IMG/VR virus record: IMGVR_UViG_3300032342_000667 | Location: 1 to 28,763 of that record | DNA: 28,763 bases | DNA from: a virus | Direction: 5' to 3' (one strand) | In this document: positions 1,212 through 13,442 of the stretch, one piece after another | Layout: each line of letters starts with the position of its first letter | How positions within the stretch are numbered: the stretch's first letter is position 1 | Translations under genes and position numbers: made by a program | Notes under the pieces: generated by a model | Told to the model about the DNA's origin: nothing | What the model saw: only the letters and a program-made list of their open reading frames with translations | Databases searched by the model: none

Positions 1212-1235
1212 CCGCATTCCCTATCCAGCATTCCC
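1212..1235 (-). repeat. Dispersed GGGAATGCGG repeat: one exact and one variant copy
   Basis: Read leftward, a variant (GGGAATGCTGG, 1235-1225) is followed by an exact copy (1221-1212). Both lie in the 163-bp gap between the gene ending at 1339 and the start of 411-1175, oriented with transcription. The rest of the gap (1236-1338) holds the imperfect palindrome TTCAGCGCTTAAA but no gene or convincing promoter that I can see. Confidence 0.9.
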
Positions 1236-1338
1236 TGCTTCACGAAGTACTATTGAATCTCATTTAAGCGCTGAAGTTGTTTGATACCGAGTGGTTACGT
1301 CAGAAGCCACGTTTCTTTCCGGAAGTTCTCCAGGAAAT

Positions 1339-1554
1339 CTACTCCAAGAACTGCCAGTCAGGATTCAGGCGAATCCGTTCGACTCCATGTTTCCGGATTT
1401 CTAAAATCACCTTGTACAGCGAGTGGCAGTTGGTGTCGATCCATTCCCCATCCGCTTCCACCCAGACGTTCATCGGGCCGTTGGTGTGCTGCCCGGAGGT
1501 GATCGTGGGGTGGCTGAATGGGGTTTGCAGGACTCGGAATTTACCTCGCTCCAC
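1339..1554 (-). CDS. Small hypothetical protein, probable GTG start
   Basis: About 71 residues if it starts at the GTG at 1554. This start is preferred over the longer ATG at 1596 because it has GGAG at good distance and overlaps the end of the upstream gene by only 14 bp. The sequence includes NVWVEADGEWIDTN and a basic C-terminal half (EIRKHGVERIRLN). The pattern resembles a small beta-rich domain. No family recognised. Confidence 0.5.
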   Translation of the reverse strand: MERGKFRVLQTPFSHPTITSGQHTNGPMNVWVEADGEWIDTNCHSLYKVILEIRKHGVERIRLNPDWQFLE

Positions 1555-1846
1555 GGTACATCTCCGGAAAGCCAGCCTGCACGTGCCACTGGTCAATCAA
1601 TTGCTGAACCTCGGTTGGTGCCGATCCGCCACCGCTGATCCCGCTCGACTGAATCGGTATCGTTTTTGACACCGATACAAGCATGTCGAACACTCTCACG
1701 GAATTGAGCCCAATACGGCTTGAATAGTTGTATCCAAGTCCCACCAGCGTCATTTGAATTGTTTTGCTACTCGTGCTGGTGATATCGCATCGTCTCCCGG
1801 GATCAGCTTGCAGCCAGTCATTCAGTGAATGGTCGATGTTCCTCAT
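1541..1846 (-). CDS. Hypothetical protein in leftward operon
   Basis: A 101-residue protein. Its ATG overlaps the stop of the upstream gene (ATGA, 1843-1846), which supports the start and coupling. The middle is beta-prone (QMTLVGLGYNYSSRIGLNS) with a Gly/Ser-rich linker near residue 80. No cysteine pairs, membrane segment or motif recognised. Function unknown. Confidence 0.6.
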   Translation of the reverse strand: MRNIDHSLNDWLQADPGRRCDITSTSSKTIQMTLVGLGYNYSSRIGLNSVRVFDMLVSVSKTIPIQSSGISGGGSAPTEVQQLIDQWHVQAGFPEMYRGAR

Positions 1847-2094
1847 ACCCCACGGTCCCTTTCCATCTTCAGTGAAGCCGCCACCCTGATGAGACGATTG
1901 GCGGTAATCTCGGCGCTGTGGTACTGGATCTCCTCACTGGCGTCCTGTCCCATGCCGATCTCCACCCCCAGTGCCAAGCAGAGTCCCTCGATCACGACGT
2001 CGTTGTCCGGGATCTTCCCAGCGTCATCCATCGCTTCGATCGTGTCCAATAGACGACTTGCCAGTCTCTTGATTGCTTTTTTTCTGTTTCCCAT
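1843..2094 (-). CDS. Hypothetical protein, helical
   Basis: An 83-residue protein starting MGNRKKAIKRL, with GGAAG upstream of the ATG at 2094. A longer reading from 2148 would start on the ATG inside a GGGAATGCGG repeat and translate two more repeats as RECGECG, so I reject it. The body is predicted mostly helical and acidic. It ends in an ATGA overlap with the next gene. Function unknown. Confidence 0.6.
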   Translation of the reverse strand: MGNRKKAIKRLASRLLDTIEAMDDAGKIPDNDVVIEGLCLALGVEIGMGQDASEEIQYHSAEITANRLIRVAASLKMERDRGV

Positions 2095-2110
2095 AGTCTT
2101 CCTTGCGTTT

Positions 2111-2152
2111 CCGCATTCCCCGCATTCCCTTTTGAAATAATCCCGCATTCCC
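2111..2152 (-). repeat. Three GGGAATGCGG repeats between two operon genes
   Basis: Exact copies at 2152-2143, 2129-2120 and 2120-2111 (the last two share one base), oriented with leftward transcription. The first overlaps the TAG stop of the gene at 2152-2532, so the stop codon is part of the extended repeat TAGGGAATGCGG. They fill the gap before the gene starting at 2094. Confidence 0.95.
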
Positions 2153-2532
2153 TATCGTGCTGAATGGGCGCTCCGTGTGCGAAGTTGACCCGGAGCGGCC
2201 GCTTGCAAAAAGAACAACGCCTGCTCGGTCAGTACGTCCTCGTCCTTGTCTGGTAACACGCCAGCGTAGTGCGGCAACTGCGCCAGCACTTCCGCCACCC
2301 AAGGTCCCGTGTGCGCCACGTGAAAGGCGGTGGATGGCGTCAGGATAGCGAAGAGAACAGCCCGCAGGTTCATGCTCTGCTTGGGGGTCAGTCTGATCTG
2401 ATCCCGTTCAATCGCAGCCTCCCCCTCCAGTGTCTGGATCTTGTGGATGGCTTGCGAAACGATCTCAGCCTGCCAAGAATCCAGGGAGCAGGGTTCCGTG
2501 ATTATCTCCTGCAGCTCGTCGATCAGCTTCAT
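2152..2532 (-). CDS. Hypothetical protein in leftward operon
   Basis: A 126-residue protein. GGAGG lies 7 nt upstream of the ATG at 2532, and the ATG overlaps the upstream stop (ATGA). The first half is acidic and helical (MKLIDELQEIITEPCSL). A more hydrophobic stretch with small residues follows around residues 50-85 but is not a clear membrane segment. The TAG stop is shared with the first base of a GGGAATGCGG repeat. No family recognised. Confidence 0.65.
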   Translation of the reverse strand: MKLIDELQEIITEPCSLDSWQAEIVSQAIHKIQTLEGEAAIERDQIRLTPKQSMNLRAVLFAILTPSTAFHVAHTGPWVAEVLAQLPHYAGVLPDKDEDVLTEQALFFLQAAAPGQLRTRSAHSAR

Positions 2533-2864
2533 GTTTTATCCTCCAGTTCCTTGGTGAACCCAGGGTCTTCCTTCACGACTCTCTTCGCGTAATTCTTCCC
2601 GCGGATCCTGCTCAGGTAGTCAAACAGCGTCCGCGTCTTGGGAGGGTAACACTTAATGCACCGCCACCCTGGAGCGACGTTCCCAAGCAAATCTCCCGTG
2701 ACCGGCAGGTAGGTGTCTCCTGATCCGCAGGTGGGGCAGAACACGATCTCCTCTTCCACTTCACCCTCGACGTTCTTCACTGGTGGCGTGAGGTCCTTGG
2801 TGGTTTTCACGGGAGCGACCTTCTTCTTAGTGTTGCGTGCGTCCAGGCGAAATGAATCGTCCAT
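2529..2864 (-). CDS. Small zinc-ribbon-like protein
   Basis: A 111-residue protein. GAGAGGAGA lies 5 nt before the ATG at 2864. After a basic, Lys/Pro-rich N-terminal tail come CPTCG (about residue 43) and CIKC (about residue 73), a CxxC/CxxC arrangement typical of zinc ribbons. The C-terminal third is basic (SRIRGKNYAKRVV). Nucleic-acid or protein binding is plausible but not shown. It overlaps the upstream gene by 38 bp. Confidence 0.65.
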   Translation of the reverse strand: MDDSFRLDARNTKKKVAPVKTTKDLTPPVKNVEGEVEEEIVFCPTCGSGDTYLPVTGDLLGNVAPGWRCIKCYPPKTRTLFDYLSRIRGKNYAKRVVKEDPGFTKELEDKT

Positions 2865-3159
2865 GAAGTCTCCTCTCCACCAGCGCTTCGATATGACAGG
2901 GGCTCTTTGTTATATCCGCGGGCGTGTGTTGGTTCATCGCGAATATCAGGCGATGCACCGACTCCACGGAGGAGTGCTTCACGTTGTTGATCATCACGGA
3001 TTGCAGGCGGATGGTTCGACCATCAAGATCCACCGCCCCCTCCCTGGTCCAGGCGGAAACGACATTCCTTGTCCTGCCAATCACCGCGCTTAGCTTGGCG
3101 ATCATCAGGGGAGTTTCGGTGGTGTAGTCAAACACGGCTATATCCTGAGTTTGGTCCAT
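2827..3159 (-). CDS. Putative helix-turn-helix-like DNA-binding protein
   Basis: A 110-residue protein. Residues about 20-45 (IAKLSAVIGRTRNVVSAW, then a basic/polar segment and IRLQSV) have the spacing of a helix-turn-helix followed by a wing, like small phage regulators. The start at 3159 has only a weak ribosome binding site and overlaps thyX by 22 bp; the end overlaps the zinc-ribbon gene by 38 bp. It is a candidate for a factor binding the operators in this genome. That link is inference. Confidence 0.5.
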   Translation of the reverse strand: MDQTQDIAVFDYTTETPLMIAKLSAVIGRTRNVVSAWTREGAVDLDGRTIRLQSVMINNVKHSSVESVHRLIFAMNQHTPADITKSPCHIEALVERRLHGRFISPGRTQH

Positions 3160-3947
3160 TCATTCAAACCATCGACCTCGATCCGCTCCCCGCCGTGTAA
3201 CATCATGGGGAACTTGGCGCGAATGATCTCCCCCACGTCGTGGAAGACTTGACGAATCTCCCATTCGGCATAACGGGAGGTCCTCAATTCCAGCATGTGT
3301 CTCAACGATCTGACATTGACCGTCCATCCGATCTCGTTCGTGGCGCCATTCGGCATGATCCTTCGCAGAGCGGACGTGAGCCGTTTCTTCGTGGCAAAGT
3401 CAGTACCCGGATCGTCGAGTTTCAATAGGGTACGGTAGTGCCTCACGTTCTGCTTGATCATCGACAGCAGATCGCGCATGGCATCGCCAATGGACCTGTC
3501 AGCCATGTATCCAGGGATGATCTTCTCCTCCAGTTCAGGCGGCAACACAAGTTCGGCATCCTCCACCGTGCAGTATCGTCCGCTAGTTTGCGAAAATGCT
3601 GTTCCAACACGGTGTCTGACCAGTTCGTGAGTGAAGACCCTGGAACAGTCAGTGGTCAAGAAATTCAGGTTGCAGTGCTCGAAGACTGATCCGTGTCCAG
3701 AGCGAATCGTGGCGGTGATGTTGTCAGCAATCTCCCGCGTCTTCCCGATATTGGAGTTCTTGCCCAACACCAGTGATCGGTAGCAGAGTTTCGCGTACAG
3801 CGAGACGAGAATCATCCCGCTGGACATCCCGTCCTCTTCGGCGATGCTCATGTCCCGCAGGAATTCCACCTGCCCAGTGTCGCTCAGGTACTCCGTCACT
3901 CCCTGGTAATCAATCTCCGTCGCTCCGATCAAGTACGTCTTTGGCAT
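3138..3947 (-). CDS. thyX: Flavin-dependent thymidylate synthase ThyX
   Basis: A 269-residue protein. ThyX methylates dUMP to dTMP using FAD, NADPH and methylenetetrahydrofolate. Visible signatures are the flavin/dUMP motif region HELVRHRVGTAFSQTSGRY (about residues 107-125) and the C-terminal TVNVRSLRHMLELR block followed by AEWEIRQ, which matches the conserved SLRHF.ELR..-.AQWEIR region of the family. The spacing from RHR to the conserved Ser is one residue longer than the classical RHRx7S. AGGAG precedes the ATG at 3947. It is in the leftward operon, so it is probably made with the other early/metabolic genes to supply thymidine for phage DNA. Confidence 0.93.
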   Translation of the reverse strand: MPKTYLIGATEIDYQGVTEYLSDTGQVEFLRDMSIAEEDGMSSGMILVSLYAKLCYRSLVLGKNSNIGKTREIADNITATIRSGHGSVFEHCNLNFLTTDCSRVFTHELVRHRVGTAFSQTSGRYCTVEDAELVLPPELEEKIIPGYMADRSIGDAMRDLLSMIKQNVRHYRTLLKLDDPGTDFATKKRLTSALRRIMPNGATNEIGWTVNVRSLRHMLELRTSRYAEWEIRQVFHDVGEIIRAKFPMMLHGGERIEVDGLNEWTKLRI

Positions 3948-4152
3948 GAATCAGCTCCTGGTGAACATAACGATGTACCCGATTTCCACCACAACCGCCG
4001 TCCAGTGGCTGATCACGGAAGTAGGCGTGCTGCTCCACTACCACCGTGCTTCCAAGCGAGACTTTCCACTCGATGACGATTTGCTTCGGTGATTCCCCTA
4101 CGTCGATCACGGCCCCGTCCCGAGGTCCTCCAAAAAGAAAAGCTCTGTCCAT
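3910..4152 (-). CDS. Small hypothetical phage protein with a GGPRDG motif, first gene of the leftward operon
   Basis: An 80-residue protein starting MDRAFLFGGPRDGAV. This start is chosen because a GGAGGGGGG purine run lies about 10 nt upstream; the longer reading from 4254 would cross the promoter and translate the repeats. The pattern GGPxDG near the N-terminus, a central beta region and a late tyrosine/histidine segment (HRYVHQ) recurs in small uncharacterised phage proteins. It overlaps thyX by 38 bp. Function unknown. Confidence 0.6.
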   Translation of the reverse strand: MDRAFLFGGPRDGAVIDVGESPKQIVIEWKVSLGSTVVVEQHAYFRDQPLDGGCGGNRVHRYVHQELIHAKDVLDRSDGD

Positions 4153-4169
4153 TTTCCCGCACCCCCCTC

Positions 4170-4199
4170 CCGCATTCCATGCCTTGGCCCCGCATTCCC
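4170..4199 (-). repeat. GGGAATGCGG repeats at the start of the leftward transcript
   Basis: An exact copy (4199-4190) is followed by a variant TGGAATGCGG (4179-4170), both oriented leftward. The exact copy begins about one base after the expected transcription start of the promoter at 4207-4234, so it would form the very 5' end of the operon mRNA. Confidence 0.9.
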
Positions 4200-6836: not shown

Positions 6837-7391
6837 ATGGAAAATCAAGTTGGTCACATGCCGCGCGGCCAGTCTGTTACGCAAATTCCAGACGCCGTGT
6901 TGGGAGTTCGGAAGGTCTTCACAGACGTCAACTGGGGCTCGACCGAAGCGATCAAGCCTCGTTTGACTGGTGCGGACGTCCATTGCCGGTTGGTGCAGAA
7001 CACCTCCGCTGGCGCGTTGCTTCCTGGTCAAGCCGTGGTTTGGAAGACTGGGTTCTTCCTGACTCAGATTGGTGCCACTGCTGGCTCGCTGTCGCTGGCG
7101 GCCGGAATCGTTGATGAGTATTTACCAGCCGCTGGCGTGCCCATCAATTCGTACTTCTGGCTGGTCGTTGAAGGTCCCACGCTGGTCATCAATGACGGTG
7201 TTGGTGTTTTGGCGGAAGGTGCGATCCTGGTCTGCTCGGCGACTGCTGGTCAGGTGCTGGCTCAGACCGCTGCTCCGGGGCAGGGTAGTGAATTGGCGCA
7301 GGTCAACGGTGTCATCGGCTTCACCTTGGCGTCCATCACGAACGTGGCCGCAACCAAAGGCCGAGCGGTAGTCAAACTCGCCTCTCGGTAA
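6837..7391 (+). CDS. Putative capsid decoration/stabilisation protein
   Basis: A 184-residue protein. AAGGACGA precedes the ATG. It is rich in Ala/Gly/Val with repeating short beta strands, and the C-terminal half (VLAEGAILVCSATAGQVLAQTA, then GVIGFTLAS) has the pattern seen in small head-decoration proteins where added and outgoing strands carry AxAGQV-type turns. It directly follows the major capsid gene and is the last gene before a strong terminator. The assignment rests on composition and position; other head roles are possible. Confidence 0.6.
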   Translation: MENQVGHMPRGQSVTQIPDAVLGVRKVFTDVNWGSTEAIKPRLTGADVHCRLVQNTSAGALLPGQAVVWKTGFFLTQIGATAGSLSLAAGIVDEYLPAAGVPINSYFWLVVEGPTLVINDGVGVLAEGAILVCSATAGQVLAQTAAPGQGSELAQVNGVIGFTLASITNVAATKGRAVVKLASR

Positions 7392-7438
7392 CGATTTCGG
7401 CAATGGGGGTCTTCGTTCCTGGCGAACGATTCCCATTT

Positions 7439-7476
7439 ATGCGGACCATCAAGCTCCGGTGGTCCGCATTTTTTTT
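7439..7476 (+). terminator. Rho-independent terminator after the head genes
   Basis: A perfect 10-bp stem (ATGCGGACCA / TGGTCCGCAT, 7439-7448 and 7460-7469) with an 11-nt loop, followed by a run of T to 7476. It ends the scaffold-capsid-decoration transcript. Confidence 0.9.
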
Positions 7477-7483
7477 GCGCTAC

Positions 7484-7511
7484 TTGACGCATTAGCCATA
7501 CACGCTAAACT
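7484..7511 (+). promoter_or_regulatory. Promoter with embedded palindromic operator, copy 1
   Basis: TTGACG (7484-7489), 16-bp spacer, TAAACT (7506-7511). Inside it is TTAGC-N7-GCTAA (7492-7508), overlapping the -10 box. The same boxes, spacing and palindrome occur at 10140-10167, so both promoters are probably controlled by the same regulator. Expected start near 7518, right before a hairpin. Confidence 0.75.
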
Positions 7512-7517
7512 GTACTG

Positions 7518-7603
7518 CGTTGGTCTGGCCGATCGACACTGGTTTCAGCCGTTTAATCGAGCCCAGTAGTAATACCGGAGGTAGAGCGGCTGGAGCCTTT
7601 TTT
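7518..7603 (+). ncRNA. Small structured RNA candidate 1
   Basis: A free-standing unit with its own promoter and terminator and no ORF. From the predicted start come a hairpin (GTTGGTC / GATCGAC, 7519-7537, 5-nt loop, two G-U pairs), then a closing stem GGTTTCAGCCG / CGGCTGGAGCC (7541-7551, 7587-7597; 11 pairs with two G-U) and six T. The large loop holds TCGAGC-CCAGTAGTA (7557-7571), shared with candidate 2 as TCGAGC-GCGCAGTAGCA. A GGGAATGCGG repeat follows immediately. Confidence 0.6.
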
Positions 7604-7613
7604 GGGAATGCGG
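7604..7613 (+). repeat. GGGAATGCGG repeat directly after an RNA terminator
   Basis: An exact copy that starts on the base after the T-run of the small RNA 1 terminator, in the direction of transcription. Confidence 0.9.
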
Positions 7614-7784
7614 GCTGAAGACAGGGAAGAAGCCCAGGAAGAAATAGCCCGTGCGGAGTCTGTTGTGGATCTGCATCCGAGTCTTCGGTGTCTCCCGCAC
7701 GGGCGCGGGGTTTGTGGGGACACCGACATAGAAAGACGTCGATTCGCTGATCGGATGGGTGCCAAGAGATTGGCGAGTGCGAAC
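7614..7784 (+). other. Non-coding structured segment between two terminators
   Basis: No credible gene. It contains a 10-bp perfect stem GCCCGTGCGG / CCGCACGGGC (7647-7656, 7695-7704) with smaller hairpins in its loop (such as GGAT-CTGC-ATCC). ORFs that cross it run through the terminator hairpins on either strand and have no ribosome binding site. No separate promoter was found; it may be read-through from RNA 1, or a second RNA. Confidence 0.4.
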
Positions 7785-7835
7785 GACCCGGTCGCGTCGT
7801 GTTCTCATGGGACACGACGCGGCCGGTCCTTTTTT
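7785..7835 (+). terminator. Strong rho-independent terminator
   Basis: An uninterrupted 10-bp core CGCGTCGTGT / ACACGACGCG (7793-7802, 7812-7821) with a 9-nt loop, extended outward by GACC / GGTC (7785-7788, 7825-7828), then six T (7830-7835). It separates the RNA segment from the gene at 7864. Confidence 0.85.
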
Positions 7836-7841
7836 AATCCA

Positions 7842-7851
7842 TGGAATGCGG
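7842..7851 (+). repeat. Variant repeat TGGAATGCGG after a terminator
   Basis: A one-base variant of GGGAATGCGG, 6 bp after the terminator T-run and 12 bp before the ATG at 7864. Its internal ATG is in frame with that gene. A weaker variant AGGAATGCAG lies at 7871-7880 within the first codons. Confidence 0.75.
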
Positions 7852-7863
7852 GGCCTATTGCAA

Positions 7864-8241
7864 ATGAATGAGGAATGCAGAAAAAACGTCAACACGTTTA
7901 CGACAGGCGCCGTACGAGGGACGGACGCTGACAGCACGAGGTACGATCTGATCAGCCCCGTCGCGATGCGCAGGATCGCCGAGACATACGCCGAAGGGGC
8001 GACGAAGTATGGCGCTCACAACTGGCGGAAGGGGTTTCCCGCTTCGGACCTGATGAACCACGCCCTGAAGCATCTCTACACGTTCTTGGCTGGTGATCGT
8101 TCCGAGGATCATCTAGCGCACGCCACATGGAATCTGATGGCGATCATGCACTTCCAGGAAAAGATGCCAGGGATGATTGACATACCGTGTGAAGCTCCCA
8201 TGCTTCCCGTAGAAAAACTCTCTCCCTGGAAGAGCACATGA
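7864..8241 (+). CDS. Putative dATP/dGTP diphosphohydrolase (MazZ-type N-terminal domain)
   Basis: 125 residues from the ATG at 7864. Residues about 23-105 show the family's run of motifs: YDLISPVAMRRIAETYAEGA, KYGAHNWRKG, SDLMNHALKHLYTF, GDRSEDHLAHATWNL and MAIMHFQE. This is an all-helical metal-dependent nucleotide pyrophosphohydrolase fold related to MazG; relatives cleave dATP/dGTP and shape the phage nucleotide pool. The ribosome binding site is poor. An alternative start at the ATG inside the repeat (7845) is in frame. No purZ or DNA polymerase gene is visible in the window to show which nucleotide is targeted. Confidence 0.75.
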   Translation: MNEECRKNVNTFTTGAVRGTDADSTRYDLISPVAMRRIAETYAEGATKYGAHNWRKGFPASDLMNHALKHLYTFLAGDRSEDHLAHATWNLMAIMHFQEKMPGMIDIPCEAPMLPVEKLSPWKST

Positions 8242-8489
8242 TTGAACATACCTACATCTGCAACATTTGCCACCAAGCCATGCGAACCGATACAGCCCGC
8301 CGCTGGATTGATGGTGTGGTAATCCACACCTCTGGTCCACCAGCAAATCCCACGGAGAGAATGGTGTTAGACAGTTACCCGAGTGGCGGCAGTGTCCACA
8401 TTTGCTCGCGATGTTTTCCTCCCTTGAAAAAGGCCATCGAATCCACGACGTTGGAGATCATAACCCTGCATGTTCCAGAAGTGAGGTGA
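8238..8489 (+). CDS. Small cysteine-pair (zinc-binding-like) protein
   Basis: An 83-residue protein. ATGA overlap with the upstream gene. CNICH at residues 8-12 and CSRCF at about 56-60 form a CxxC...CxxC pair, likely a zinc-binding site. The middle (GVVIHTSGPPANP) is loop-like. A small phage zinc protein of unknown role, translated together with the diphosphohydrolase-like gene. Confidence 0.6.
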   Translation: MIEHTYICNICHQAMRTDTARRWIDGVVIHTSGPPANPTERMVLDSYPSGGSVHICSRCFPPLKKAIESTTLEIITLHVPEVR

Positions 8490-8492
8490 TTT

Positions 8493-8831
8493 ATGATCGA
8501 TTCTCATGCTGAACCAAGTGAGCCAACTAGCGAACAGTGCAACAATCACGACCAAGTGTTCGAGTCGCACGATCACGTTGGCTACGCGATTTGGTATCCG
8601 TCGATGGGCGGATACAGCGGCAAAGCCGTTGCTGTCATGTGTAAGAAGTGGGTCGACGAAGGGACGTCTCGTACCGGAGGCTGTATCGACGTGTATGTCT
8701 GGCACGATGGCGAGTTTCCGTTCCACGACGGAGAACAGCCAACAATCATTCACCACTGCTGCCCGGAAGGGTTCATCACGTTCGGCGAGAAACTTTCGCG
8801 ACTGAACAATAAAGGGCGTGTGAAGACATGA
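8493..8831 (+). CDS. Hypothetical protein
   Basis: A 112-residue protein. GAGGTGA lies just upstream of the ATG and overlaps the end of the preceding gene. The protein is rich in His, Trp, Tyr and Asp, with a compact alpha/beta pattern around GYAIWYPSMGGYSGKAVAVM and IDVYVWHDGEFPF. Not recognised. The ATGA-type overlap with the next gene shows coupling. Confidence 0.6.
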   Translation: MIDSHAEPSEPTSEQCNNHDQVFESHDHVGYAIWYPSMGGYSGKAVAVMCKKWVDEGTSRTGGCIDVYVWHDGEFPFHDGEQPTIIHHCCPEGFITFGEKLSRLNNKGRVKT

Positions 8832-9250
8832 CGCACTCACCTGAACCGTGGATCGAAGGCGAATGGAGGATTAACGAAGAAGCACGCGGTGGCAAAAATC
8901 CGTGCAAGCGTTCCTGGATCTTCACTGCTGGCAGCGGAATCCACTCTGGCGTTCAGCGCGGCGATATCATTGAGGACGTTTTACCACCACCAACCGAGAT
9001 CATTCGACAACTCGACTGCGAGGAAGGCGGTGGCTACGAAATCTCCGATGACGACATGGAACGTATTGTGGCCTGCGTAAACGCCATGGTTGGAATAGAA
9101 CGACCAGTGGAGTTCATGAAGCAGCTCGGGCGAGTGATGATGCGATCTGGAGGAGTTTGCGTGATGCGGGATTTGCCAATGGGCATGATTGGATTCGTGG
9201 AAGAGTTAGAGAAACTCAAAGAGATTCAGTCGTTCGAGGAATTCTGCTAG
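8828..9250 (+). CDS. Hypothetical phage protein of the MTHSPEPW type
   Basis: A 140-residue protein. The start MTHSPEPW and the later segment DDDMERIVACVNAMVGI match a pattern I know from many small uncharacterised phage and prophage proteins (MTHTPEPW ... ARIVACVNAC.GI). Function is not established for that group. The C-terminus is helical (GFVEELEKLKEIQSF). The TAG stop is part of a GGGAATGCGG repeat. Confidence 0.7.
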   Translation: MTHSPEPWIEGEWRINEEARGGKNPCKRSWIFTAGSGIHSGVQRGDIIEDVLPPPTEIIRQLDCEEGGGYEISDDDMERIVACVNAMVGIERPVEFMKQLGRVMMRSGGVCVMRDLPMGMIGFVEELEKLKEIQSFEEFC

Positions 9251-9296
9251 GGAATGCGGTGCCGGAAAGGATGGAAAATATGTCTAGGGAATGCGG
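9250..9296 (+). repeat. Two GGGAATGCGG repeats flanking a gene start
   Basis: Exact copies at 9250-9259 (sharing the G of the upstream TAG stop) and 9287-9296, 37 bp apart. The second lies within the first codons of the gene at 9280 and is translated as RECG. Confidence 0.9.
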
Positions 9297-9489
9297 GGAA
9301 TATTTCATTGATTTCATTGAATTGCGAATGTTGTCAGTTGATGAGCTGAGCGTTCAGCTTCAGTACCGAATGAGGCCACCTGGAAAGAAGGGAGACTGGG
9401 GACCATGGCGAGACGCCAAAGTTCTGACGATCGGGGATCCGGAGAATCAGGCACAGGACGATCGTCCTGCCAAGCTCGCCCCCTTGTGA
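9280..9489 (+). CDS. Small hypothetical protein with a repeat-encoded N-terminus
   Basis: A 69-residue protein from the ATG at 9280, chosen because AAAGGA lies 8 nt upstream; an in-frame ATG at 9271 is too close to that site. It begins MSRECGEYFIDF, where RECG is the translated GGGAATGCGG repeat. The rest (YRMRPPGKKGDWGPWRDAKVL) looks like a small beta domain. It ends in a TGATG overlap with the next gene. Unknown function. Confidence 0.55.
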   Translation: MSRECGEYFIDFIELRMLSVDELSVQLQYRMRPPGKKGDWGPWRDAKVLTIGDPENQAQDDRPAKLAPL

Positions 9490-9698
9490 TGCGGATTTTC
9501 TGTCAGGCCTGCGAGGACGACCTCTCAGATACCGAGCGCACGATCAGTCGAATCTTCGAGGGCAAGTACTACTGCCTGGAGTGCTACACCGAGAAGGCCC
9601 ATGGTCGCGTCTTTTGCTACGAGCGGGAGAACTCCCAGTATCTCGGCGATCATCTGACACCACGTCAGTTCGCAAAACTTGACCGCGAGGACGAATGA
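9489..9698 (+). CDS. Small zinc-ribbon-like protein
   Basis: A 69-residue protein starting MRIFCQACEDDL. CQAC at residues 5-8 and CLEC at about 31-34 make a treble-clef-like CxxC pair, with a further Cys and His nearby (HGRVFCYE). The start overlaps the upstream stop (TGATG). One of several tiny zinc-binding-like proteins in the accessory segment. Role unknown. Confidence 0.6.
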   Translation: MRIFCQACEDDLSDTERTISRIFEGKYYCLECYTEKAHGRVFCYERENSQYLGDHLTPRQFAKLDREDE

Positions 9699-10126
9699 TG
9701 AAGAAGCCGTTGGATGTGATTGAGGTGGTGGCGGTGATCAACGTCAAACTCCCAGACCCAGCCGTGAGGGCCTTACGCCTGCTGACGAGAACCTACCTCT
9801 CGCAGGCGCTGCATTTGCTGAATATCGAAGAGAACTTGGCGGACACCGCCTCCGGTAATTCAGCGACCACCACCCAGTACGATCTGATTCAGAAATCACT
9901 GAGAGCCTTTGGTGGCGCCCCTGGAAAAGACGAGGCCGCGGAACTGCTGCAAGAAGTGATCGGCCGGATTTCCGAGTTCAGGAGTAACGTGGCGCGTTTC
10001 ACCTCACGGAAAGATCGTTTGCTGGCCGAGATCAAAACCCTGCAAGAACAGGTCGATAAGTTGATCCAGAAAAAACGCCTCTTCAAAGAGGTCAGGAATC
10101 ATCACGCCGAGCCAGTGCAGGAATGA
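9695..10126 (+). CDS. Hypothetical coiled-coil protein
   Basis: A 143-residue protein. GAGG lies ahead of overlapping ATGATG starts at the end of the previous gene. The N-terminus is helical/hydrophobic (ALRLLTRTYLSQALHLL). Residues about 90-130 form a coiled coil (LLAEIKTLQEQVDKLIQKKR). No catalytic motif. A weak AATCAT/ATGATT stem followed by seven T at the stop may end this transcript just before the next promoter. Confidence 0.65.
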   Translation: MMKKPLDVIEVVAVINVKLPDPAVRALRLLTRTYLSQALHLLNIEENLADTASGNSATTTQYDLIQKSLRAFGGAPGKDEAAELLQEVIGRISEFRSNVARFTSRKDRLLAEIKTLQEQVDKLIQKKRLFKEVRNHHAEPVQE

Positions 10127-10139
10127 TTTTTTTGGGCCA

Positions 10140-10167
10140 TTGACAGATTAGCTTTTGCCGCTAATCT
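10140..10167 (+). promoter_or_regulatory. Promoter with embedded palindromic operator, copy 2
   Basis: TTGACA (10140-10145), 16-bp spacer, TAATCT (10162-10167). A perfect 8-bp inverted repeat AGATTAGC-N7-GCTAATCT (10145-10152, 10160-10167) spans from the last base of the -35 to the end of the -10. The TTAGC-N7-GCTAA core matches copy 1 at 7492-7508. A bound protein would block polymerase, so repression is the likely mode. Confidence 0.85.
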
Positions 10168-10173
10168 ATGTGA

Positions 10174-10266
10174 ATCACCAACGCGAGTTGGCAAGGTCGA
10201 CCGCACGACCAAAGGTGAGAAAAGCTGGCGACTTCGAGCGCGCAGTAGCACTCACCTTCCCTTTTT
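10174..10266 (+). ncRNA. Small structured RNA candidate 2
   Basis: It starts at the predicted initiation site. Three hairpins follow: CCAAC-GCGA-GTTGG (10178-10191, a GNRA tetraloop); GGTCG-ACCGCA-CGACC (10195-10210); and a closing stem AAGGTGAG / CTCACCTT (10212-10219, 10251-10258). After CCC and five T the transcript may end, though the CCC makes it a weaker terminator. The loop contains TCGAGC-GCGCAGTAGCA, shared with RNA 1. The second loop contains CCGCA, the exact complement of TGCGG in the dispersed repeat. If transcription reads through, this is the leader of the Cas12-like gene. Confidence 0.6.
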
Positions 10267-10272
10267 ATGTAG

Positions 10273-10282
10273 GGGAATGCGG
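10273..10282 (+). repeat. GGGAATGCGG repeat between RNA 2 and the Cas12-like gene
   Basis: An exact copy just after the RNA 2 T-run. It is followed by a GCGCT-TCGTAGT-AGCGC hairpin (about 10289-10305) and then the ribosome binding site of the next gene. Confidence 0.9.
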
Positions 10283-10326
10283 AGAGAGCGCTTCGTAGTA
10301 GCGCGTAAAAAAGAAAGGGGATGCGT

Positions 10327-11583
10327 ATGTTAGTTAGTGTGACTCCATTTGAGATTTTCAAGTTCGCTGGTGGGGACAAGGCTCGTCGCGCGCAGTGGAA
10401 GCTAGTCTCCGAGGAATGCCAGCAGATTCACAATCGAGTCTGGCAGCTATTCCTCCAGTGGCATAGCGTTAATGGGTCTGTTGCAAAGATCAAGGCTGGC
10501 TTGGAGGCCTTGGCTGCTTGGCGTGCGGCAGGTGGAGACAAGGAGACGAAACCTAAGCCGGAAGTGGTGGCGATCGGCTCCGAGCTTAGCAAGATCATCT
10601 ACCGTGATGTATCTGATGGCTGGCCGGATGTTCACTCACGCACCAGAGTGCTGCTGCTGAATCGTTTAGTATCCGGCATCCGAACCCGCAAGGCTTGCAG
10701 AGGCTCCTTGCCGGGTTGGATCAATATCCTGTTCTGCCGGGAGGGAATCCCATCCTTCACGCATCCAGTTCCGATTCCATTCGATAAGGTAAACTCCCAT
10801 CTGATTCCTCCTGACGACGAGAACGATAACTGGCGGCTGTCGGTGAAGGTGGAGCGGTCGCCTAGTGACGGCCACTCCCTGGTAGATGAGTGTGAACTCA
10901 TGACCCGCAAGCGAAAGACACGCAGAATCGCTGGCGTGCTCTCTAGGATCGCTGAGGGACTGTCATCGTTTCGTGGCTCCTATTTGGTATGTGATCGCGG
11001 GAAGTGGGTTGCCATGATCTGCCACACCTCAGCCGCGGAGCAGGCTAACATGCTCGACTCCACCAGGAAGGCCATCCTCATGCCGGGGGTGCATAACGCG
11101 TGGGTGGTGAAGAAGAACGGCATGATACGTCGTCGATTCGCTGACCGGAATGGTGAAGCGAGGCACGTCCTTGGTATGCGTCGGTTGATCTTCGGTGAAC
11201 GTCAGGAGCGGCAGGCAAATTACCGCTGGGCCTCGTCCAGCCTTAAGGGTCACGGCCGCGGGAAAGCCACGCACGGATGGGAAAAGCTCTCCAGCCGCTG
11301 GCGTGATTTCGTGAAGCGTTACAACAACGAGATCACGACGAAGCTGGTGAAGGAGTGCGTGCAGGACGGGATTGGAACGATCGAGTACTACCAGCCAGTT
11401 GATTTCCAGCGCGATCGGCGCTGGCTAACCGGGAAAGACTACCGTTGTGGCTGGGACTATTTTCAGGTTAAAACGATGCTCTCCCAGAAGTGTCAACGGG
11501 CTGGCATCGTGTTTACAACGAAGCAGATCGGTGCGGTGGAGGAGGGCGCGAAGCCAGCCACCATACCTCGAAAAACTGCCTAA
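10327..11583 (+). CDS. Cas12/TnpB-like protein, apparently nuclease-dead
   Basis: 418 residues from the ATG at 10327 (AAAGGGG with 6-nt spacing; the ATG at 10321 is too close). The C-terminal half follows the Cas12/TnpB plan: a strand pair with GKWVAMI (about 225-231); a RuvC-I-like segment LMPGVHNAWVV (251-261); KGHGRG with basic helices (307-312); a long helix (LSSRWRDFVKRYNNEITTKL); and a RuvC-II-like strand GIGTIEYYQP with Glu353. At RuvC-I the expected Asp before (P/L)G is Met252. The protein stops about where the TSxxCxxCG zinc ribbon and RuvC-III Asp should follow. It would therefore bind RNA and DNA without cutting, like TnpB-derived repressors (TldR). It sits behind RNA 2 and before the repeat array. 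The family call is from motif reading. Confidence 0.65.
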   Translation: MLVSVTPFEIFKFAGGDKARRAQWKLVSEECQQIHNRVWQLFLQWHSVNGSVAKIKAGLEALAAWRAAGGDKETKPKPEVVAIGSELSKIIYRDVSDGWPDVHSRTRVLLLNRLVSGIRTRKACRGSLPGWINILFCREGIPSFTHPVPIPFDKVNSHLIPPDDENDNWRLSVKVERSPSDGHSLVDECELMTRKRKTRRIAGVLSRIAEGLSSFRGSYLVCDRGKWVAMICHTSAAEQANMLDSTRKAILMPGVHNAWVVKKNGMIRRRFADRNGEARHVLGMRRLIFGERQERQANYRWASSSLKGHGRGKATHGWEKLSSRWRDFVKRYNNEITTKLVKECVQDGIGTIEYYQPVDFQRDRRWLTGKDYRCGWDYFQVKTMLSQKCQRAGIVFTTKQIGAVEEGAKPATIPRKTA

Positions 11584-11590
11584 CTATCAA

Positions 11591-11710
11591 GGGAATGCGG
11601 GCTGCTGGGCGCACTGGAGGTGAAGTGGGTAAGGGAATCAATAGGGAATGCGGGAATTCCGACTCGCCTCGACGGGTGAAGTGGGCGAGGGAATCAATAG
11701 GGAATGCGGG
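11591..11710 (+). repeat. Three GGGAATGCGG repeats with a 56-bp tandem duplication
   Basis: Exact copies at 11591-11600, 11644-11653 and 11700-11709. The last two lie in a duplicated 36-bp block (11619-11654 and 11675-11710, 34/36 identical) offset by 56 bp, twice the 28-bp period of the later array. Each block also has the half-copy AGGGAATC just before the full repeat. The segment follows the Cas12-like stop and has no credible gene. Confidence 0.9.
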
Positions 11711-11721
11711 CCGGGCAAGCA

Positions 11722-11988
11722 ATGACTAGATTTTTCCGATCGTGTTTCATCTGCCATGATATCGTCTCAGTCAGTGCAAAGGTCGCTGGGCGTGGTGAGA
11801 AGGTGTATTGTTCCGATCATGGCAAGTACGCCACGGTCATAACCAGAAAGGCCAATACTTATGTCAGAGAACCAGGAAAACGCCGTGTGGTCGCAGTCAA
11901 TCGCCAAGGCCCGGGAGCTTCGCCGGAAGGGGGCGGGATTGCTGTGGGATCGCGTGAAGATTCTGATCGGGGTTTACAAGGACAGTGA
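11722..11988 (+). CDS. Small Cys/His protein, overlaps the next gene by 128 bp
   Basis: 88 residues from the ATG at 11722. CFICH (about 8-12) and CSDH (about 30-33) suggest a zinc-binding site in the first 45 residues. The C-terminal 40 residues lie in another frame over the start of the next gene and look low-quality (Gly/Arg/Ser rich), as if only the N-terminal part is under selection. No good ribosome binding site; an in-frame ATG at 11704 lies inside the repeat. Function unknown. Confidence 0.45.
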   Translation: MTRFFRSCFICHDIVSVSAKVAGRGEKVYCSDHGKYATVITRKANTYVREPGKRRVVAVNRQGPGASPEGGGIAVGSREDSDRGLQGQ

Positions 11989-12367
11989 CTTTCTGGCGCA
12001 CTGCGATTCACTCGATCGCAATGCGGAGGACGTGCTCGACGACGAGCTGTCGGACACCTGTTCGGAGTTCCTGCCTCTGAAGATTACCATGGAGTACTTT
12101 CCCGAGAAAAACGACTGGCTGAACACGAAGATTGACGTCCTGCGTGCCAAGGCCGAGGAGATGTGCAAGAAAAGCCGTCATGATGGAGAGGAGATCACGC
12201 GTGATCGGCCTTCCTGGAAAGAACGGTACATGGAATTGAAGCGGAAGTACGACGCCTCCCAGATCGAGTGGCAGCTCAAGCACGACGCCCTGCAGAAGAG
12301 CCACGACGTCATGGAGGCCCGGTTTGAGGAGCTGTCGAAGGTGCTGCAGTTCCAGGCGACGCATTGA
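11861..12367 (+). CDS. Hypothetical coiled-coil protein preceding the repeat array
   Basis: A 168-residue protein. AGAAAGG lies about 9 nt before the ATG. The protein is acidic and strongly helical. Residues about 85-168 look like a continuous coiled coil (KERYMELKRKYDASQIEWQL, then SHDVMEARFEELSKVL). No enzymatic motif. It lies between the Cas12-like gene and the 28-bp repeat array on the same strand, so it could be part of the same module; this is position-based inference. Confidence 0.65.
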   Translation: MSENQENAVWSQSIAKARELRRKGAGLLWDRVKILIGVYKDSDFLAHCDSLDRNAEDVLDDELSDTCSEFLPLKITMEYFPEKNDWLNTKIDVLRAKAEEMCKKSRHDGEEITRDRPSWKERYMELKRKYDASQIEWQLKHDALQKSHDVMEARFEELSKVLQFQATH

Positions 12368-12371
12368 AAAG

Positions 12372-12548
12372 GGGAATGCGGTAGTACTCCTCAACCCTAG
12401 GGAATGCGGGTGGGAACCGTGATGTCAGGGAATGCGGGGGGGTCATCGGCTCGATAGGGAATGCGGGTATACGTCGCATCAACTGGGAATGCGGGGCAAG
12501 GGTGATGCTAGGGAATGCGGGTTCGTCGTTTTGCCCGAGGGAATGCGG
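12372..12548 (+). repeat. Array of seven GGGAATGCGG repeats, about 28-bp period, unique spacers
   Basis: Exact repeats start at 12372, 12400, 12428, 12457, 12485, 12511 and 12539 (steps 28, 28, 29, 28, 26, 28). The six intervening spacers are 16-19 bp and unrelated to each other. The repeat is usually extended to AGGGAATGCGGG. A degenerate eighth unit (ACAATGCGAG) falls in the spacer of the promoter at 12561-12588. The layout is CRISPR-like in miniature, but the repeat is far shorter than a CRISPR repeat and has no internal hairpin. It could instead be an array of protein-binding sites next to a promoter. Confidence 0.9.
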
Positions 12549-12560
12549 GGTACACTAGGC

Positions 12561-12588
12561 TTGACAAAAACAATGCGAGAAGTAGGAT
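12561..12588 (+). promoter_or_regulatory. Promoter at the 3' end of the repeat array
   Basis: TTGACA (12561-12566), 16-bp spacer, TAGGAT (12583-12588). The expected start (about 12594) coincides with the first base of a perfect 9-bp hairpin. It lacks the TTAGC-N7-GCTAA operator of the other two RNA promoters but abuts the seven-repeat array. Confidence 0.7.
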
Positions 12589-12593
12589 GAACG

Positions 12594-13255
12594 CCACTGA
12601 GGGATGAGATCCTCAGTGGTGCGGAAGGCGAGCGAGATTAAAGGCCAAACGTAATATGAGTACATCACTGCAATTTTCGTTACGTTTGGCAAAGCTCGCT
12701 AACGAAAACTCACTTCAACAGCCAGCTCCTTCGGGTTCTGGCTGTTGTCGTTTGCGTCACAGGCATTGCTTGCCAAACGGGCTTTCTCTGACCACACCCG
12801 TAACAGTCTGGTGGTCGAAATCCGATATGCCAAAAACCCGTAAGACGGGTGGCGAAGTAGTGGGTCGAACGGTTGTGGGCAATCTGGTTCACGACGAGAG
12901 TCGAGCACGGACAGCTCGTCTCTTCCACCAAAAGCACATGGCATCTTCGGTAATCGGTGAAACGCACAAAGCGCTGCCCGGCTTCAACTCGGCAGATTCC
13001 AGGAGTATTCCTGGAACGCGTGCGTCTAAAGCACAAACAGATTAACGTGTACCGATTGAAAACTCATGTCACCCCCCCTTTAGCTGTTGAGGGGGAAAGG
13101 GGGTGTCTTCGCCAGAGTTTGACCCCACTTCAGTCAGACGTCACCATCGGCGGACTCCAAGAGTGTCGAGTGCTCTTGGCTGAGGAGGGTCGTCACGAGA
13201 CAAGCCTGTCACGCCTATCGACCCGCGAAAAGAGCCTTCAAAGGCTAAGAGAAAG
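12594..13255 (+). ncRNA. Large, densely structured non-coding RNA candidate
   Basis: About 660 nt with its own promoter and no credible ORF. Perfect stems in order: CCACTGAGG/CCTCAGTGG (12594-12619); AGCGAG/CTCGCT enclosing GCCAAACGTAA/TTACGTTTGGC (12631-12700); AACGA/TCGTT enclosing AACAGCCAG/CTGGCTGTT with a UUCG loop (12701-12752); GACCAC/GTGGTC (12790-12816); ACCCGT/ACGGGT (12836-12850); GACGAG/CTCGTC (12893-12920); AATCGGT/ACCGATT (12952, 13057) enclosing ACGCAC/GTGCGT and two hairpins, one of them TTCCAGGA/TCCTGGAA; a C-rich/G-rich stem (13070-13105); CCAAGAG/CTCTTGG (13157-13179); GGGTCG/CGACCC (13187-13224). It recalls the GOLLD/ROOL class by size and phage context only. It may end as the leader of the gene at 13260. 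Confidence 0.65.
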
Positions 13256-13259
13256 AACC

Positions 13260-13442
13260 ATGAAAAAACAACAGACCGACGCCCAGAAGCGACGCGACAG
13301 GAGGCCAGTGAAATTCACCCCTGTCCATGCTTGTTCGCGCTGCGGCGTTAAACGCGTGGTGACTGTTCAGGAGGAGAGGCAGGCCGCACGACTGCGGTGC
13401 TTTGAGTGTGGTGGACCAATGAACCGCATCAGCCAAACTTGA
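13260..13442 (+). CDS. Tiny zinc-ribbon protein
   Basis: A 60-residue protein. A basic N-terminal tail (MKKQQTDAQKRRDRRPVKF) is followed by CSRCG and CFECGG, a CxxC-x20-CxxCG zinc ribbon. The tail suggests RNA or DNA contact. It lies directly downstream of the large structured RNA, so it may be translated from the same transcript and could bind it, which is inference. The ribosome binding site is weak (AAGAGAAAG). Confidence 0.6.
   Translation: MKKQQTDAQKRRDRRPVKFTPVHACSRCGVKRVVTVQEERQAARLRCFECGGPMNRISQT

Follow-up and report, generated by a model that had tools for sequence, protein, structure and literature searches.

A candidate RNA-guided DNA-binding module in a tailed phage: a shortened Cas12f-like protein, a tracrRNA-like RNA and an array of ten-base repeats

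Results

A cargo block in a tailed phage

The window, by which we mean the whole stretch of DNA analysed, is a linear IMG/VR record of 28.8 kb. Because its right arm has terminase, portal and head genes, we assign it to a tailed phage; the left-arm genes run leftwards, and the two arms are divergent. A related record, L014, has a terminase that is 48% identical and is syntenic, with head and packaging genes in the same order, and it has almost nothing between its decoration-like gene (ending at 8994) and the next gene (9103). At this place the window has a 6-kb block (7391–13406) containing a dATP/dGTP pyrophosphohydrolase-like gene, small ORFs, two RNAs (nc1 and nc2), a Cas12-like gene and a repeat array. 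The absence of this block from L014 indicates that the region flagged by the earlier note is a cargo block. The features are as follows, with cas12 denoting the Cas12-like gene.

1212–4199, minus strand: five exact repeat copies (1212, 2111, 2120, 2143, 4190) and one variant (4170)
7484–7613, plus strand: nc1, with promoter/operator (7484–7511), structured RNA, T6 and one repeat (7604–7613)
7724–7761, plus strand: probable decayed cas12 copy, a 38-nt match to cas12 gene positions 11118–11155 (76% identity)
7788–7832, plus strand: strong intrinsic terminator at the end of the nc1 unit, an 18-pair stem followed by TCCTTTTTT
9250–9296, plus strand: two dispersed repeat copies (9250 and 9287; exact matches)
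10140–10167, plus strand: promoter with palindromic operator TTAGCn7GCTAA ahead of nc2-cas12 (assigned by resemblance)
10172–10272, plus strand: nc2, a tracrRNA-like RNA (from its fold z score and complementarity to the repeat)
10273–10282, plus strand: repeat fused to nc2 (exact match to GGGAATGCGG)
10321–11583, plus strand: nuclease-dead, C-terminally shortened Cas12f-like protein of 420 aa (from alignments and family profiles)
11591–11709, plus strand: three repeat copies with unique stretches of 18–21 nt
12372–12566, plus strand: short-repeat array, seven copies of GGGAATGCGG with unique 16–19-nt spacers (from repeat count and spacer comparison)

The Cas12-like gene was found in one other IMG/VR record, which is the same phage at 99.98%; the two records have two differences over 9846 bases, one of them at 10292. 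It was not found in INPHARED, which also gave no DNA match to window positions 7478–13100. Four related phage contigs have neither the Cas12-like gene nor the array; besides L014 these are the records L015–L017, which are fragments and in which no Cas12f-family match was found. In the left arm, an ORF contains a perfect two-copy tandem repeat of 27 nt (935–989).

A shortened Cas12f-like protein

The product of the ORF at 10321–11583 matched Cas12f (1.9e-14, over residues 32–397) and Cas12u3 (3.9e-12) in PADLOC, TnpB in NCBIfam (4.4e-8) and a solved Cas12f among PDB chains (4.7e-9); four libraries agreed on its Cas12-type identity, and it has the Cas12f-family membership that characterizes the effectors of type V-F CRISPR-Cas. 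When aligned with 9i8y, the protein has M254 at the Asp of GVDLG and Y358 at the Glu of QIEN. The protein ends about 20 residues past the RuvC-II helix, without RuvC-III (which supplies the third Asp) and without the zinc ribbon, and the intact RuvC D-E-D plus zinc ribbon of type V-F was not found. Because the protein lacks RuvC-III, the zinc ribbon and both of the leading acidic residues of RuvC, we predict that it is very unlikely to cut DNA; the dead Cas12-like effector proposed by the earlier note is borne out and can be placed near Cas12f. An AlphaFold model built from two sequences was poor (pLDDT 38.7), and the catalytic loss thus rests on alignment and not on structure.

A ten-base repeat and its array

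The sequence GGGAATGCGG is by far the most frequent 10-mer, with 19 exact copies where 0.07 are expected; no shuffle came close. Seven copies form the array, in which the repeats span 12372–12548 at start-to-start distances of 28, 28, 29, 28, 26 and 28 nt and the 16–19-nt spacers are mutually unrelated. The plus-strand copies outside the array begin at 7604, 9250, 9287, 10273, 11591, 11644 and 11700. The array and the copy behind each RNA had been recognized earlier, and the five minus-strand copies of the left arm, missed at that time, lie mostly upstream of left-arm genes. In each of the two divergent arms, every copy is on the same strand as the local genes, as would suit an element that acts at the RNA level, and the earlier suggestion that array and dispersed repeats are a source of guides agrees with their placement, which would supply guides on the 3′ side. 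The repeat is preceded by A in 14 of the 19 copies and followed by G in 14 of 19.

The copies at 11644 and 11700 are held in a 35-nt extended repeat, GGTGAAGTGGGNNAGGGAATCAATAGGGAATGCGG (11619–11653 and 11675–11709, 94% identical), which recalls a full-length CRISPR repeat. An array of the ~36-nt repeats of type V-F was not found, the main array consisting of 10-nt repeats. We found no plus-strand terminator between 10140 and 12548. Directly behind the array (12561–12720) there is a promoter-like TTGACA-16-TAGGAT, and the RNA after it has a very strong predicted fold (z −5.3) and no Rfam match.

Pairs of GGGAATGCGG elsewhere in IMG/VR were rejected as arrays, as they lie in low-complexity, repeat-rich sequence. 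In a relaxed three-copy scan, the matches listed mostly had a period divisible by three and were set aside as coding-like; a relative of the protein lay beside none of the matches listed.

Predicted pairing of nc2 with the repeat at two places

The motif TTGACnnATTAGCn7GCTAA has exactly two exact matches, at 7484 and 10140 (0.10 expected at three or fewer mismatches), which upholds the two operator-matched RNA promoters claimed earlier. nc2 lies between the second of these promoters and the Cas12-like gene. Its hairpins are, in order, CCAAC/GUUGG, GGUCG-ACCGCA-CGACC (10195–10210) and a long GGUGAG..CUCACC, and its fold is better than that of shuffles (z −2.65, 5/200). The 6-nt loop of the second hairpin contains CCGCA, complementary to UGCGG, the 3′-terminal pentamer of the repeat; near the 3′ end, an anti-repeat UUCCCU (10257–10262) is complementary to AGGGAA. 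Together, CCGCA and UUCCCU can pair with precisely the conserved AGGGAATGCGG. Among all 19 repeat copies, the anti-repeat features occur upstream of one, the copy behind nc2. Rfam gave nothing convincing.

Both anti-repeats occurred together in 1e-4 of dinucleotide shuffles, or in 0.4% if any repeat 5-mer is counted. Because the motif test was set up after the complementarity had been seen, the generalized 0.4% is the fairer figure, and we count the post hoc design against the V-F-like reading discussed below. The guide RNAs of type V-F contain a long repeat/anti-repeat duplex and a short pseudoknotted one of 5–7 bp (PMC11246509), and the computed pairing of nc2 has the same two-duplex form, long plus short pseudoknot. 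Bases ~10283–10302, which follow the repeat fused to nc2, would be a built-in guide. The difference at 10292 between the two phage records is a SNP within this putative guide.

Relatives in Enterococcus

The nearest relatives found are Cas12f-family proteins of Enterococcus, 24–27% identical, which also end after RuvC-II. Two are plasmid proteins (WP_002350689 and WP_229029667), and the third source is the draft genome of E. faecalis 13-SD-W-01. In GTDB genomes, the protein alone as query found no relative and the alignment found one Enterococcus. The Enterococcus loci have 36-nt repeats ending in CAAAU (CAAAT in the DNA) and ~30-nt spacers, and all three loci examined (L019:2362–4262, from NZ_LR134109.1; L018:2515–3791; L021:5053–6450) have a hairpin whose loop of 6 nt, AUUUGG, is complementary to the repeat end. 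This pairing of hairpin loop to repeat end is the same as in the phage, and thus provides an independent check on the anatomy of nc2. The Enterococcus elements, which are low-GC Gram-positive, differ from the phage system in their longer repeats and spacers and in having the tracr-like RNA downstream of the gene.

Shortened Cas12f-family proteins on Enterococcus plasmids matched 105 records; in the two that were opened, the protein is annotated as 'hypothetical protein'. L019 has two copies of the tracr-repeat block (150 nt, 97%).

nc1 as a probable decayed duplicate

The two RNAs had been described as structured twins that act as tracr/scout-like partners, and this description holds in part. 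They have the promoter/operator and the downstream repeat in common, but the RNAs themselves give no convincing alignment, and the structure that is evident in nc2 is weak in nc1, whose fold is slightly better than that of shuffles (z −1.75, 10/200). nc1 has neither the CCGCA nor the UUCCC anti-repeat and was ruled out as a tracr on that ground, and so the partner role is retained for nc2 only. Downstream of nc1, the 38-nt match to the cas12 gene was equalled in 0 of 300 shuffles, and the peptide RRRFADRxG is common to both sites. The simplest reading of these sequences is that the nc1 unit would have arisen by duplication of the nc2-cas12 module and decayed since.

Searches for spacer targets

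We found no convincing spacer match in the phage itself or related phages, nor in phage and plasmid collections. Two spacers (4 and 6) were searched in IMG/VR without a convincing match: spacer 4 had none, and spacer 6 had one exact match of 20 nt (the spacer plus one flanking base per side) in an unrelated viral contig of similar GC (L151:4961–4980), which was not counted, as a collection of this size is estimated to yield about one 18-nt match to each spacer by chance. Self-targeting was rejected, as no non-trivial seed match is longer than 9 nt, a length not above chance. Regulation of host or phage genes, as first proposed, is therefore without spacer support.

Discussion

A possible programmable repressor

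We favour, with a probability of about 0.55, the reading that this phage carries a nuclease-dead, V-F-like RNA-guided DNA binder that acts as a repressor. nc2 and the array would be transcribed together with cas12, which we infer from the lack of a detectable plus-strand terminator between them. In trans, nc2 would then form a 5-bp pseudoknot duplex and a 6-bp anti-repeat duplex with each repeat, and the dead Cas12f-like protein would hold this guide RNA, bind DNA matching the 3′ spacer and block transcription of genes of the host or of competing elements. The repeat downstream of nc2 may serve as a ready-made single guide RNA. Further points count against the V-F-like reading: no spacer gave a convincing match in the collections searched, repeat and spacers are short relative to known V-F arrays, the structure model was poor, and a second, independent case of the short-repeat form was not found. 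If the reading is right, the 10-nt repeat would be wholly used in tracrRNA pairing, so that the repeat part of a crRNA would be reduced to an extreme degree; dead-Cas12 regulators programmed by an array would be within the reach of a phage; and the locus would offer a small programmable DNA-binding module. It is a speculative extension, and an improbable one in our estimate, that the dispersed 10-nt repeats in leaders and intergenic stretches let nc2 turn phage transcripts into guides besides those of the array, such that expressed genes would program the Cas12f-like protein.

The main rival is an anti-CRISPR that sequesters crRNA, in which the protein, nc2 and repeats would mimic the V-F system of the host and capture its effector, crRNA or tracrRNA. 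Two published precedents are thought to act in this manner (PMC10651486, PMC11656645): RNA anti-CRISPRs, and a dead Cas9 that a phage encodes together with a tracrRNA of its own. Many of the repeats are also solitary and dispersed. We retain this reading because no convincing spacer match was found in the collections searched; however, an array of seven copies whose spacers are unique and even in size exceeds what a decoy needs, and no host array is known to carry the repeat. We consider the decoy clearly the less probable explanation, though a serious one.

It is unlikely that the repeats instead serve within phage transcripts, in leaders and intergenic mRNA, as RNA sites at which nc2, with or without the protein, would bind and control processing or translation, the array being a sponge. 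Most of the dispersed copies do lie between genes, none departs from the coding strand, and nc2 can pair with every one of them, but neither the even 26–29-nt period of the array nor the link to a Cas12f-family protein is explained. We give little credence to a decaying TnpB/Cas12f locus without present function: the lost catalytic residues, the decayed duplicate at nc1 and the confinement to a single phage lineage are as expected of a remnant, but the reading frame is open over 420 codons, all 19 copies of the 10-nt repeat are identical and neither anti-repeat has been lost. Least credible is an iteron-like DNA binding site for replication or partition, unconnected to the Cas12-like gene, as the short identical words are regularly spaced but without helical phasing, their strand tracks transcription in both divergent arms and they are exactly complementary to nc2.

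Likeness to known systems

The proposed RNA-guided binder has the effector family, the two-duplex tracrRNA anatomy and the 3′ position of the spacer in common with type V-F CRISPR (Cas12f / V-U3). It differs in its dead RuvC and missing C-terminus, in its repeat (10 nt, compared with ~36 nt), in spacers of 16–19 nt that are shorter than those of known V-F arrays, in the dispersal of repeats between genes and in being carried by a phage. TldR proteins, which repress with guides down to 6 nt (PMC13418256), are likewise dead members of the TnpB/Cas12 superfamily found in phages, with their own guide RNA and short guides, and the phage locus has such a nuclease-dead protein with a guide RNA adjacent to it. 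Because TldR guides can be this short, spacers of 16–19 nt are no obstacle. TldR has a dedicated guide and a recognizable host target, whereas the phage system has an array and a separable tracr-like RNA, and no guide target next to a TAM was found in the collections searched; if our reading is correct, the system sits between TldR, with its dedicated guide, and true CRISPR, with its array.

Cas12m (type V-M), a naturally dead Cas12, binds DNA and blocks transcription (PMC11656645), but the phage protein matches no Cas12m model, PADLOC giving Cas12f and Cas12u3 only. Racr RNA anti-CRISPRs and solitary repeat units are also phage-borne, but this phage encodes an effector and a tracr-like RNA of its own. 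Searches of the open-licence literature turned up no described phage system that joins a dead Cas12f-like effector to an array of 10-nt repeats, which is weak evidence of novelty. PDB 9n9c (365 aa) is a Cas12f-family chain named 'nuclease-deactivated Cas12f'; the phage protein alone did not match it at E 10, and a profile of the protein with its relatives matched it at 2.1e-12.
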